Notes under the pieces: generated by a model | The model's database searches: none | Seen by the model: the letters and a program-made list of their open reading frames with translations, nothing else | Told to the model about the DNA's origin: nothing | Shown: positions 2,926-27,080 of the stretch, one piece after another | Layout: the number at the start of each line of letters is the position of its first letter | How positions within the stretch are numbered: position 1 is the first letter of the stretch | Assembly (NCBI GenBank): GCA_013214545.1 | Contig: JABSQB010000014.1 | Location: 1 to 64,000 of the forward strand | Origin: Henriciella sp. | Lineage (GTDB): Bacteria; Pseudomonadota; Alphaproteobacteria; Caulobacterales; Hyphomonadaceae | Direction of reading: 5' to 3' | DNA length: 64,000 bases | Translations under genes and position numbers: made by a program

Positions 2926-4224
2926 ATGGTGAAAATAAAATACAAGAAACAACGAAAGAGCGACATAGATCTTATTGTTGAAACGGCAAAAAAACTTCGC
3001 ATCAGAAATGAAAATAATAGTATTTCCTTACGTGGAGCGGGTGCCGGAGACATTGATTTACTGCTTTACTCACGCCTAGATATCGACCCCGACGAGGAAG
3101 ATTACATACTTCGGAGCGTGTTGTTTTCTGCGGTTGCCAGCAACGAGCTTTCGGATGATTTTTCGGCTGAAGACTTATTGAACATCGTCAGGAAGAAGTA
3201 CTGGGAGAAAAAGACCGATAAATCAAATCGATACACGGTGCTCACCGGCATGTACTTGAAAGGTGAGCTTCCAATCTCTCGCCTTAAACTTCATGATTGT
3301 CTGATACAGCGATTAAAGCCGCTGAAATCTCGCACGCAGGCGAGAATGATTGATTCTCACAATGAGGCCGTGCGTACTATACATTTCCGCCACTTCCCTC
3401 GAATCGACGACGATTATTGCGTGACGGCTGGGTCGTCGGAAAAGCAACTATTCAAGATATTTGTTTCGGCAAAGAATGCCGAAATTGCTTACCGGCGTGC
3501 GCTTGGAGCGTTTGGTGAATTGCGCGGCTTGCTCAGCTATTTGATGAATCGCAACAAACATAGTCGGATGAGTACGGGGTCGTATCGACAATCGTTGAAC
3601 GACGTACGCCCCATCCAATTCTCGACCGTCCACCAAAAAAGCGGAGAGCTGGCAGAGCAAGGGCTATGGTATTACCCTGAATGGTCGAAGCCGGGCAACG
3701 TTCAAGATCTCGACAGCCGCCCAGTAGTGAAGAAAAACCTCGATCGTGGGATTTCTGTACTCAAGGGGTCAAATTTTCCATCTGCGCATGCCCGAAGAGC
3801 GCTTAGAATGTACTGCGATTCGACCGACAACCTCGATTTGCGTAAAGCATTTTTGGAACTTTGGACCACTTTGGAGTTCATCACGACGCTTGGTAAGCAG
3901 GTACCGCATGAGAAGGTGGTTAGACGTGCTAGTTCAATTTACAAAGACAAGGCACACGCCCTTCTTTATCTGAACCATTATAGAGATATCCGAAATGGCA
4001 TGGTTCACGGATACGCCGATTACGACGAGCGCTTCGCCGAGCGCGTTCTTTTTCAGTTGAATCGAGATGTTTGCGCATTTTTGGATTACTTCGTTTTTAA
4101 TCAAACGGGATCCTCAAGCGCCACGGAGTTCGAAGAGTTTTTTGATGCACCGTTTGACAATGAACTCATAAAAATGAGACTCCAAGTTTATGAGCGCGTC
4201 CTTCGGTTCAGACGTGACCCCTAA
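2926..4224 (+). CDS. HEPN-like (ApeA-type C-terminal domain) protein of unknown function, low GC
   Basis: 432 aa ORF; C-terminal RKAFLELWTTLEFITTLGKQ...LYLNHYRDIRNGMVHGYADYDE resembles a HEPN RxxxxH motif; much lower GC than flanking genes; starts 15 nt after the previous stop. Confidence 0.6.
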   Translation: MVKIKYKKQRKSDIDLIVETAKKLRIRNENNSISLRGAGAGDIDLLLYSRLDIDPDEEDYILRSVLFSAVASNELSDDFSAEDLLNIVRKKYWEKKTDKSNRYTVLTGMYLKGELPISRLKLHDCLIQRLKPLKSRTQARMIDSHNEAVRTIHFRHFPRIDDDYCVTAGSSEKQLFKIFVSAKNAEIAYRRALGAFGELRGLLSYLMNRNKHSRMSTGSYRQSLNDVRPIQFSTVHQKSGELAEQGLWYYPEWSKPGNVQDLDSRPVVKKNLDRGISVLKGSNFPSAHARRALRMYCDSTDNLDLRKAFLELWTTLEFITTLGKQVPHEKVVRRASSIYKDKAHALLYLNHYRDIRNGMVHGYADYDERFAERVLFQLNRDVCAFLDYFVFNQTGSSSATEFEEFFDAPFDNELIKMRLQVYERVLRFRRDP

Positions 4225-23333: not shown

Positions 23334-24787
23334 TCCGCTCCACCTATCTCGTCGCCCGCCGGGACTATCTTGGCTATGTCTCCGCCTGGGGCTTCTGGCT
23401 CGGCCTGCTGTTCACGCCGATCATTTTGGCAATATTCATTCTGGCGCCAACCTTTGCCCAGAATACTCAACCGACCCGCTATTACACGATCATCGAACAA
23501 GGCAGCACATTCACCGATGCGATGCGGGCCGAAATGGCGAATACGCAAGCGCGGATGGCGCGCGTGATCCTCGACCCGGTTGCTTTCTCCGAAGGCGAGG
23601 AAAGCGAGACGCTGATCGCATTTGACGCTGCTCTGGACGGAGGCGCGAGCGTCGCTGACGCGTTTGAGGCCGCGGGCGGCAACCCCGCGACCCTGCCGCG
23701 CGCGGATTTTGTCGAAGTGGAACCGCCCGTGCGCACTGGGGCAGAACTGGCGCCCTATCTGCTCGGCGAAACCCTGATAGAGACGGCAGACGGCCCGCAG
23801 CCTTTGTTTGCCGCCTTGCTGGTCAATGAAGACACGCAGGAAATCGAATACTGGTCGGAAAACCTGCAGGCCCGCGCCCTGATCACAGCGGCGCGCCAGG
23901 CCGAACAGGATCTACAACTCGACCGGGCGCTCGCGGCCGTGAATATCAGCCGCGATGTCCTGACCGAAGCGCGCGCAGCGCGGCGCGACGTGAAACAGCA
24001 ACGTGTGCGCACAGGCGAAGACGCCAATGAAGGGACAGAAGTCACGCAGGCGGACCAGGCGCCATTTGTCGTCTCCATCATGATGGCCTTCTCGCTCTGG
24101 TTCCTGATCTTCTCGGTCATCAATTACCTCCTGATGGGCACGATCGAGGAGCGCTCGAACAAGATTTTCGACAGCCTGCTGACCTCGGTGAAGCTGCCGC
24201 ATCTTTTGGCTGGAAAACTGATCGCGGTGCTGTTGCTGGCGCTGACCCTGATGGCATTCTGGGGCCTTGGCTCAACATTACTGACCTGGTTCATGCGCGA
24301 GAGTATTCCCGAAGATGTCGCAAGCTTCCTCGGAACAATGATCACCGCAGCGGCCAATCCGGCACTGTTCATTCCCGCCATTATCAGCTTCGTGCTCGGT
24401 TACCTGATGTACGGCTCAATGTTCCTGGCGCTCGGGTCGTTGTGTGACACGATTCAGGAAGCCCAGACGCTGATGACGCCGCTTTTTGTGACCTTGATGG
24501 CGCCGCTCGCCATGCTGGCCTTTGCGGTTGCAGACGCGGAGTCAGCGCTGATCGAGATCATGGCCTGGGTGCCGTTCTTTACGCCCTTCCTGCTGATCCT
24601 GCGCATGCCGACCGAGCCGCCGCTCTGGGAAGTTCTGGCGCAGCTCGGCATGATGGCGCTGACCACTTACATCATCCTGCAGCTCGCCACCCGCGTTTAT
24701 CGCGCTGGCGCCGTACATGGGGCCGGTGTCAATGAAGTCATGGCGTTCTTCGGCAAGCTCATCCCGGGCAAGAAATCAGCGGCCTAG
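23330..24787 (+). CDS. ABC transporter permease (NatB-like, ABC-2 type)
   Basis: long extracytoplasmic loop then IMMAFSLWFLIFSVINYLLMGTIEERSNKIFDSLLTSVKLPHLLAGKLI; ATGA overlap with ATPase gene. Confidence 0.9.
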   Translation: MIRSTYLVARRDYLGYVSAWGFWLGLLFTPIILAIFILAPTFAQNTQPTRYYTIIEQGSTFTDAMRAEMANTQARMARVILDPVAFSEGEESETLIAFDAALDGGASVADAFEAAGGNPATLPRADFVEVEPPVRTGAELAPYLLGETLIETADGPQPLFAALLVNEDTQEIEYWSENLQARALITAARQAEQDLQLDRALAAVNISRDVLTEARAARRDVKQQRVRTGEDANEGTEVTQADQAPFVVSIMMAFSLWFLIFSVINYLLMGTIEERSNKIFDSLLTSVKLPHLLAGKLIAVLLLALTLMAFWGLGSTLLTWFMRESIPEDVASFLGTMITAAANPALFIPAIISFVLGYLMYGSMFLALGSLCDTIQEAQTLMTPLFVTLMAPLAMLAFAVADAESALIEIMAWVPFFTPFLLILRMPTEPPLWEVLAQLGMMALTTYIILQLATRVYRAGAVHGAGVNEVMAFFGKLIPGKKSAA

Positions 24788-26067
24788 ACCGACTGTTCCT
24801 TGATGCCCTCAAACGAGTCGGCCTTGGCAAGGTCTGGGAACAGACGCGTCCACAGCAGCGCCACGGTGATCGCAACTGAGCCGCCAAGAATGACCGCCCC
24901 GACCGGACCGAGAAAGCGTGCCGCAACGCCGCTCTCAAACTCGCCAAGCTCGTTCGACGCTGAGATGAAAATGAAGGACACCGAGGTCACCCGGCCCTTC
25001 ATTTCGTCAGGCGTGGCAAGCTGGATCAGAGAAGCGCGGACATAGACCGAAATCTCGTCCGCGGCGCCAGTAATGATTAGGGCGATGATGGAGAGCCAGA
25101 ACACGGATGACAGGCCGAAGACCAGAGTCGCGACGCCATAAATGCCGACCGCCCAGAACATCCACGCTCCGACATGGCGGGCAAGCGGCCGCCGAGCCAG
25201 CAGAAACGCGACGGTCAGCGCGCCAATCGCGGGCGCTGCGGCGAGAAACCCAAGACCCGCCTCCCCGACATGCAAGATGTCTCGCGCAAACACCGGCAAG
25301 AGCGCGACAACGCCGCCAAAGAACACAACGAACAGATCAAGCGAGATCGCGCCGAGGACGATCTTGTTGCGGCCAATATAGCGAATGCCTTCGAACACCA
25401 TGTCGAGCCCGCGGGCATGATCCAGCTTTTCGTGGGGCGGCGTCTTCGCCGTCGCGATGGCAACAATGGCGAAAGCGATCAGCACAAAGGCGGCGCCATA
25501 AACCAGCGACAGGCCGCCAAGGGCCAGAAACAGTCCGCCCAAAGCCGGGCCGACTATCTTGGCCGTTTGAAATCCCAGTGAGTTGAATGCGATCGCGGTT
25601 GGCAGCTCGATGCGTGGGACAAGCTGCGGATAGAGCGCGTTCGCGGCCGCCGGGGTAAACGCGTTGACCAGGCCGAGCAGGACCGCGACGGAGAATATGA
25701 TCGGCAGCGCTTCCCGTGCAGGCAGGAAAATCGTGGCGAGGAGCGCCACAGTCCCAACCAGCCGCATTAAATTGCTGATGACCAGGATCATCTTGCGGTT
25801 CAGCCGGTCGGCCGCCTGCCCTCCAATAAGCGAGAAGAGCAAGACAGGGATAAATTGTGCAAGCCCAACCAGACCGATCATGAAGGCCGCTTGCGGAATT
25901 TCCAGGCCAAGCCCGCCTTCAGCAATCGGATCGCGCGCCAGTTCATAGACCTGCCAGCCAATCGCCACCGCCTCCATCTGGCGCGCAGCCGCGACGGAGA
26001 CCCGCATCAGCCAAAATTGCAAATAGGCTCGATGTCGGAAGATGGAGAGAGAGGGAGCGAGCGCCAT
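24784..26067 (-). CDS. MFS transporter
   Basis: ~12 hydrophobic segments; GGQAADRLNRKMILVISNLMRLVGT MFS motif A-like. Confidence 0.88.
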   Translation of the reverse strand: MALAPSLSIFRHRAYLQFWLMRVSVAAARQMEAVAIGWQVYELARDPIAEGGLGLEIPQAAFMIGLVGLAQFIPVLLFSLIGGQAADRLNRKMILVISNLMRLVGTVALLATIFLPAREALPIIFSVAVLLGLVNAFTPAAANALYPQLVPRIELPTAIAFNSLGFQTAKIVGPALGGLFLALGGLSLVYGAAFVLIAFAIVAIATAKTPPHEKLDHARGLDMVFEGIRYIGRNKIVLGAISLDLFVVFFGGVVALLPVFARDILHVGEAGLGFLAAAPAIGALTVAFLLARRPLARHVGAWMFWAVGIYGVATLVFGLSSVFWLSIIALIITGAADEISVYVRASLIQLATPDEMKGRVTSVSFIFISASNELGEFESGVAARFLGPVGAVILGGSVAITVALLWTRLFPDLAKADSFEGIKEQSV

Positions 26068-26161
26068 GCGAGCCTCGTAATGCTCTGCAGCGCCAACGCA
26101 ATCAGATTTTATGGCTCACGCGCGCGTCACTTCAAAAAGAAAAAGGGATCAAAAACAAAGA

Positions 26162-26191
26162 GGGGGTGCGGACCTTTCGGCTCGCACCCCC
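26162..26191 (-). terminator. strong Rho-independent terminator for a minus-strand transcript
   Basis: GGGGGTGCG...CGCACCCCC 9-bp stem; on the minus strand followed by TCTTTGTTTTTGATCCCTTTTTCTTTTT. Confidence 0.85.
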
Positions 26192-26212
26192 ATTTTGGCG
26201 TCATTTGTGTCG

Positions 26213-26383
26213 CTAGTGACAAGTTCCGCTAAGTCCCTGCCTTCGCGCCTCAATTGAGGCCTGAAACTTCCCGTTCTGCTCGCGCAGTTTTGTTAAGTCC
26301 CACCATCCAGATCCCCGTTGCCGGTGTTCTTTCTGGTCTACGTTGCGGCTCGTGCCCCGTTCGTAGATATGGCCCTGCTTCAC
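26213..26383 (-). CDS. possible small ORF, 56 aa (GTG start), uncharacterised
   Basis: minus-strand frame VKQGHIYERGTSRNVDQKEHRQRGSGWWDLTKLREQNGKFQASIEARRQGLSGTCH*; below the track's apparent length cutoff; coding status unproven. Confidence 0.25.
   Translation of the reverse strand: MKQGHIYERGTSRNVDQKEHRQRGSGWWDLTKLREQNGKFQASIEARRQGLSGTCH
26247..26260. repeat. 14-bp perfect palindrome GCCTCAATTGAGGC
   Basis: read directly. Confidence 0.7.
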
Positions 26384-26559
26384 CCCTCTAGATGGCGCTC
26401 CACAGACATCGCGTTGCCTTTCCCTTCATCTCCTCCGGTTTCCTTCACTACCCCCCATTTCTGAGGCTCACTCATGATCCGGCATCGTCCGGGCGCGACG
26501 TTCTTTCGGCGGCTCCTCCCGGTGGCTTCCCGATACTCGCTGCCGACGGATTTAGAAAA

Positions 26560-26672
26560 GACTCAGAACCAAAAAGAGTCGATAGGCCGGTGCCAAGATT
26601 CATCACGAATCAGGGTCGCTCTCCACAGAAAGCGCGATTCTGTGGACAAGTTGAGTCTTTCGTTCCGGATTC
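26560..26672. promoter_or_regulatory. cluster of seven GANTC (CcrM-type) methylation sites with a DnaA-box-like inverted repeat
   Basis: GANTC at 26560, 26576, 26597, 26607, 26636, 26653, 26668; TCCACAGAA-agcgcga-TTCTGTGGA at 26622-26646; TGTGGACAA (TTGTCCACA on minus) at 26641-26649. Confidence 0.6.
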
Positions 26673-26765
26673 GAACCAAACCTGTTCGCAAACAGTGTCT
26701 GACTTGCCGCCTCTTAACATGTCGAATTGGGCTGTCCAGCACTAATCTTCGCTGGAACGTATCGA

Positions 26766-27080
26766 TCAATCTTCGTCGATAAACTCGACTCCGACATCGG
26801 TTTTGGTGCGCCAGCGCATTTTACCGCGCCGCTTCACACCGTAGCGAGAGATATTCACCACCATGCCATCGAGCAGGCTGTCACCATTTTCGAAACGCAA
26901 TCGCGCGCCGTTTGAGGACAGATCAAGGGCAATTCCGCGTTTGAGGAAGCGACCACTGTTCGATTTTGCAACAACATCCGCATAGGTGTCATTGCGCTGA
27001 GCGGCCCGCCGCTCAACCATTTCTGGCTCTTCTTCAACCTCTATTTCAGGTTCTTTGGCCCGTTTGAACCAACCAAACAC
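26766..27080 (-). CDS. PilZ domain protein
   Basis: ERRAAQRNDTYADVVAKS (RxxxR), LDLSSNGARLRFENGDSLLDGMVVNISRYGVKRRGKMRW. Confidence 0.75.
   Translation of the reverse strand: MFGWFKRAKEPEIEVEEEPEMVERRAAQRNDTYADVVAKSNSGRFLKRGIALDLSSNGARLRFENGDSLLDGMVVNISRYGVKRRGKMRWRTKTDVGVEFIDED

Follow-up and report, generated by a model that had tools for sequence, protein, structure and literature searches.

A dense GANTC cluster adjoins the predicted gene of a structured RNA of the Hyphomonadaceae and is a candidate cell-cycle-controlled promoter region

In Caulobacter, a GANTC site between the -10 and -35 elements marks promoters that fire together in mid-cycle (PMC4287350). The podJ P2 promoter carries such a site at -24, and podJ P2 as well as mipZ P2 have the DnaA motifs CTCCACA, ATCCACA or GTCCACA at -52 to -83 (PMC4287350). 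Among bacterial non-coding RNAs, the Caulobacter CcnA RNA has a length of 182 nt, lies inside the origin and is under the control of CtrA (PMC8959179), and OLE, GOLLD and ROOL are large structured orphan RNAs (PMC12286853). Here, we describe a locus in a stretch of 64,000 nucleotides from Henriciella sp. (GCA_013214545.1, contig JABSQB010000014.1, positions 1 to 64,000; the window) which resembles both groups. As in podJ P2 and ctrA P1, where the site is found at -24 to -29, a GANTC lies near the promoter core, and as in podJ P2 and mipZ P2, NTCCACA DnaA motifs lie 50-85 bp upstream (PMC4287350). Unlike the Caulobacter promoters, the window promoter would drive a non-coding RNA and holds up to seven or eight GANTC sites; furthermore, its two DnaA-like boxes are arranged as a rigid palindrome and its invariant GANTC is located further up, at a -35-like position. 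The promoter is a further case of a known type, and the RNA is an unlisted family. On balance, we favour the reading that the locus is a replication-timed promoter controlled by CcrM, probably with GcrA, and by DnaA, from which a trans-acting structured non-coding RNA would be made.

Seven GANTC sites start within 113 bp, at 26560, 26576, 26597, 26607, 26636, 26653 and 26668, exactly where the original prediction had placed them. The cluster sits in a gap of about 700 bp between a PilZ-domain gene (26766-27080, minus strand) and an MFS transporter gene (24784-26067, minus strand). In the entire window, 115 GANTC are present, as compared to about 320 in dinucleotide shuffles and 234 predicted from the base composition. 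This corresponds to a depletion of about two- to threefold, which is general in CcrM-bearing Alphaproteobacteria (PMC3973325). At the window's own density, 0.2 sites are expected per 109 start positions, and the scan-corrected Poisson probability of seven GANTC in 113 bp is about 8e-6, rising to about 5e-4 under base composition alone. Because the window is depleted in GANTC, the cluster is rarer than the originally estimated expectation of 0.4 sites implies. Part of the inverted GANTC pairing that had been pointed out is trivial: each GANTC is a palindrome, and two such sites pair whenever their middle bases are complementary. For a genome-wide ranking, as had been proposed, the 3.57-Mb assembly was searched for three GANTC with each gap up to 30 bp. 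This pattern occurs 56 times, five overlapping occurrences representing the locus at 26560-26672, and none of the other places among the 50 listed of the 56 has a chain as long as its seven sites. The next dense intergenic place is the origin region between hemE and the PF03618 gene, with five sites in 40 bp. Elsewhere in the window, positions 3001-4000 have a G+C content of 0.476 against about 0.59 around them and may represent an acquired segment.

The GANTC cluster is no isolated element, since it adjoins an unannotated RNA gene that the original prediction had not seen. This predicted non-coding RNA gene of about 400 nt extends over 26150-26545 on the minus strand, as judged from conservation and from two covariance models, R1 and R2; its start was placed from the -10-like element and its end from the terminator. 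Across close relatives, the stretch of about 400 bp together with the GANTC cluster retains 78-93% identity, and the suggested comparison with sister species hence found the cluster conserved. In an RNAalifold alignment of nine relatives, compensatory changes are already visible. Model R1, the core of which spans 26260-26433 (minus strand) and includes a 3' hairpin (GGGACUUAACAAAACUG...CAGAACGGGAAGUUUC), has homologs in four genera. Model R2 was built from 25 sequences and describes a family-wide structured domain at 26337-26502 (minus strand). It finds 52 loci, one per genome, with E-values down to 1e-36, all of them in Hyphomonadaceae, and gave no credible match in the sampled rest of the order and class. 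The domain is composed of helix P1 (26494-26501/26406-26413), an internal hairpin (26462-26466/26453-26457), a hairpin with a CUAG loop (P3, 26394-26396/26384-26386) and a conserved CGGGG-ACGA-CCG hairpin (26363-26366/26338-26341), all on the minus strand. In this domain 93.3% of the cells are paired and both sides have changed in 28 of 36 pairs; none of 500 shuffles reaches this covariation, and slid controls are nowhere near it. At its 3' end, the predicted gene has an intrinsic-terminator-like GC-rich hairpin (inverted repeat I1, 26156-26197, minus strand) followed by the T-rich tail TCTTTGTTTTTG, and, within the window's clade, the homologs with enough sequence to cover this place have a comparable hairpin there. 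On this comparative evidence, we consider it nearly certain that the RNA gene and its predicted fold are real.

A scan of the RNA against Rfam 15 gave no match even at an E-value of 10, and the covariance models of OLE, ROOL and GOLLD did not match at gathering score. Neither did those of 6S RNA, tmRNA and RNase P RNA, and the genome carries its 6S-like, tmRNA and RNase P RNAs in other locations; no tRNA is present at the locus. A coding gene on either strand was ruled out because of single-nucleotide indels and in-frame stop codons among close relatives, and the base pairs are compensatory; in addition, the RNA stretch has no minus-strand frame of at least 80 aa. With CcnA the RNA would share, as proposed here, a wiring to replication and cell-cycle regulators, but it is longer, is encoded outside the origin and lacks a full CtrA site, and its covariance model gave no credible match outside the Hyphomonadaceae. 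Weak model matches beyond the family (L072 and L073, among other pattern matches) fall into coding DNA or fit a single hairpin and were regarded as chance, and a phage origin was dropped as a degenerate core pattern was unmatched in viral contigs.

The carriers of the RNA are marine bacteria of one family and belong to four genera; they include Henriciella species such as H. pelagia, Hyphomonas johnsonii and other Hyphomonadaceae. Its apparent length is about 300 nt in genus g18 and about 400 nt in the window, and it is longer in Hyphomonas and in relatives of H. pelagia. The longer RNAs have a 3' motif before the terminator, which in Hyphomonas takes the form GAGTGCTAGCACA...CTCGGTAGTCCGATTCG. 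In about half of the sampled Henriciella genomes (G002, G004, G005, G006, G008, G009, G011, G013, G016, G017, G020 and G022) no R2 match was obtained although relatives have the RNA; it would either have been lost in a patchy manner or have diverged too far for the model. The loop of P3 varies by clade and is nearly always self-complementary (CUAG, AGCU, UCCGGA, UUCGAA, CUCGAG, GGCC). This hints at a loop-loop self-association of the RNA, as in other large bacterial RNAs; the loops are no more than suggestive in this respect, because G312 is an exception to the rule and relatedness lowers the effective number of cases. Like OLE, GOLLD and ROOL (PMC12286853), the window RNA is a large structured orphan RNA, and several of its loop sequences are self-complementary, a hint at possible self-association; it differs from them in matching none of their Rfam models and in being chromosomal and confined to one family. 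It would be a further step to postulate a new class, unique to Hyphomonadaceae, of large self-associating RNAs with a DnaA and CcrM promoter tied to fork passage. We consider this rather doubtful; if true, the RNA would be a replication-timed RNA machine or regulator.

The neighbourhood of the RNA gene differs between genomes, with rnpB downstream in some Hyphomonas, tRNA-Tyr/Gly genes upstream in some Henriciella and pilZ in the window, and the RNA locus is therefore an independent unit. This bears on the idea of a cis-acting, riboswitch-like leader of the downstream MFS transporter gene (24784-26067), which lies on the same strand about 90 bp after the terminator. Since the RNA has a terminator of its own, and the downstream gene differs between relatives, is often convergent and is rnpB in Hyphomonas, we attach almost no weight to this explanation. 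The variable neighbourhoods also speak to a DnaA-titration or replication-control locus of the datA/DARS type with the RNA as a bystander. The DnaA-like boxes and the GANTC array do resemble the hemE-side origin; however, there are only two boxes, and the element stays at a fixed distance from the RNA next to rnpB, tRNA-Tyr/Gly or pilZ alike, so that we regard such a function as very improbable.

The probable chromosome origin itself was located in the gap between hemE and the PF03618 gene (RP001) at G000:C73:31900-33900 (L147), 787-1112, these two genes being the flanks of the Caulobacter origin. The flanks are found there and not at 26560-26672. The locus is hence not the origin, and two of the roles originally predicted for the cluster, a replication-control site and a chromosome-positioning locus, find no support. 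Besides the five GANTC in 40 bp, the origin gap contains a CACAG-N13-CTGTG palindrome as well as boxes of the sequences CTATCCACA and TCATCCACA. It shares with the RNA promoter a GANTC array and TCCACA boxes, but is located at a different place and has no visible sequence homology to it. As the palindrome, present in the genome's own origin, is not found in the origins of most relatives, its occurrence at both places is not strong evidence. In five genomes the RNA gene lies 93-390 kb from the origin, a distance that is biased by draft contigs and carries no weight here.

Of the functions originally proposed, a GcrA/CcrM-controlled promoter fits best, given the RNA gene downstream, a fixed GANTC, and the presence of gcrA and a ccrM-type gene. 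The second GANTC site of the cluster, the invariant one, is part of the motif TCGACTC (26576-26582, minus strand), which occupies a -35-like position. TCGACTC is present in 50 of the 52 homologous loci, where 78-95 bp separate it from the first conserved helix of the RNA, and the core GANTC thus keeps a near-constant distance from the RNA. With the transcription start placed by prediction, this agrees with CcrM/GcrA-controlled promoters, in which a GANTC shared across species lies no more than about 50 bp upstream of the start, between or near the -35 and -10 elements. In the window, a putative -10-like element, TAAATC, lies within TCTAAATC at 26549-26554 (minus strand), the Caulobacter -10 being GCTANAWC. 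In Henriciella, about 22 bp separate TCGACTC from TAAATC, which is a non-standard spacing. In Hyphomonas the core promoter reads TCGACTC-N12-GTGAGATC, which fits the Caulobacter housekeeping consensus TTGACGS-N10-14-GCTANAWC. Conservation of TCGACTC could simply reflect a -35 function, the whole region being a strong, mainly constitutive stable-RNA promoter, with the palindrome as an ordinary activator site, methylation irrelevant and the extra GANTC incidental. In line with this, the GANTC excess beyond the core site is small outside the window's clade. Against it stand seven sites within a GANTC-poor window, three sites that retain GANTC despite a change of the middle base, and the three to five GANTC kept at shifted positions in more distant Henriciella and in genus g17. 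We consider a mainly constitutive promoter unlikely.

The individual sites were compared in eight close relatives of the window locus. Site 1 (26560-26564), flanked by the invariant site 2 and the -10-like element, is present in 6/8 relatives, site 3 (26597-26601) in 8/8 and site 4 (26607-26611) in 7/8, the latter two with A or T as the middle base. Site 5 (GATTC, 26636-26640), which lies within the palindrome described below, is found in 7/8 with three different middle bases, site 6 (GAGTC, 26653-26657) in 3/8 only and site 7 (GATTC, 26668-26672) in 8/8. The changing middle base at 26597, 26607 and 26636 fits selection on GANTC itself. This evidence is moderate, because the plain column test is not significant by itself (18/28 fixed GA/TC columns conserved versus 43/78 neighbouring columns in close relatives). 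In the 200 bp upstream of the RNA, the 52 loci together contain 149 GANTC as compared to 57.8 ± 7.1 after shuffling, and the flanks of the same loci contain 0.30 per 200 bp. In the window's clade there are 58 upstream GANTC in 11 loci (17.3 expected), and outside of it 91 in 41 loci versus 40 expected, about 40 of the 91 being the core site. GANTC beyond the core site are for the most part characteristic of the window's clade. The homolog G285 has no GANTC at its promoter, and many Hyphomonas promoters of the RNA (L137, L042-L051) have two sites that abut each other at a distance of five bases (GGGACTCGACTC).

Site 7 forms the centre of a 23-bp imperfect palindrome, TTTCGTTCCGGATTCGAACCAAA (26658-26680), which is near-identical in 8/8 close relatives with variable flanks. 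This element could be the operator of another regulator, and since LexA motifs can also overlap GANTC (PMC7987155), the sites might be by-products of the operators of LexA or of a factor binding at 26658-26680. However, no LexA-type GTTC-N7-GTTC and no full CtrA site (TTAA-N7-TTAA) is present in 26501-26780, and the GANTC sites have no common flanks; the by-product explanation is distinctly unlikely. The 23-bp palindrome also resembles a tRNA T-arm (GGTTCGAATCC), with no tRNA at this place.

Between the GANTC sites, at 26622-26646, lies a second palindrome, TCCACAG-N11-CTGTGGA. Its distal arm is the DnaA-box-like TTGTCCACA (26641-26649, minus strand) and its second arm CTCTCCACA (26619-26627, plus strand), as part of inverted repeat I4 (26622-26630/26638-26646). 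A CACAG-N11-13-CTGTG-type palindrome is present upstream of TCGACTC in 44 of the 52 loci. The half-sites GTCCACA and CTCCACA match listed Caulobacter DnaA promoter motifs, and NTCCACA motifs stand upstream at promoter-like spacing, as in DnaA-regulated promoters; from this motif resemblance, DnaA is predicted to bind to the paired TCCACA boxes. The distance between the centres of the palindrome and of TCGACTC clusters at 34, 45 or 54.6 bp in 45 measurable loci, including G007, which has TGGACTC in place of TCGACTC. Three classes about one helical turn apart, as for activators that have to face the polymerase, are no more than suggestive, because three classes are few.

In the favoured reading of a replication-timed promoter, the GANTC cluster would be the regulatory region of a minus-strand promoter for the Hyphomonadaceae-specific RNA of about 400 nt. 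The housekeeping polymerase, together with GcrA at CcrM-methylated GANTC, would read this promoter, with help from DnaA bound some 65-85 bp before the start, at the pair of TCCACA boxes. Once the replication fork has passed, the GANTC array would be hemimethylated; transcription would depend on its methylation state and on the activity of DnaA, so that the RNA would be made in an S-phase window. In the window's clade, the additional GANTC would make this response sharper or longer. The RNA would act in trans and not as the leader of a neighbouring gene. With strong covariation support, an unlisted structured RNA family is gained, the hosts of which are budding bacteria with a poorly known cell cycle. 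The 52 genomes are natural replicates for testing how a single promoter may combine methylation with the replication initiator. Should the RNA prove to be timed by the cell cycle, it would join a very small number of bacterial non-coding RNAs that seem to be connected to both DnaA and CcrM.

The window's genome encodes both candidate regulators of the methylation branch, gcrA (PF07750, G000:C62) and a CcrM-type methyltransferase with a RAMA domain (373 aa, G000:C50). The extended GcrA motif is YGAKTCK, which the Brevundimonas data do not demand (PMC7987155); at the core site, TGAGTCG of Hyphomonas matches it, whereas AGAGTCG of the window does not. A second, partial gcrA-like match at G000:C85:14738-14926 is broken by a stop codon and is probably a remnant, and the relative G017 has two GcrA matches above the cut-off. 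The gcrA gene of genus g17 is itself a neighbour of the RNA gene, at a distance of about 1.7 kb (L138, G200:C52).
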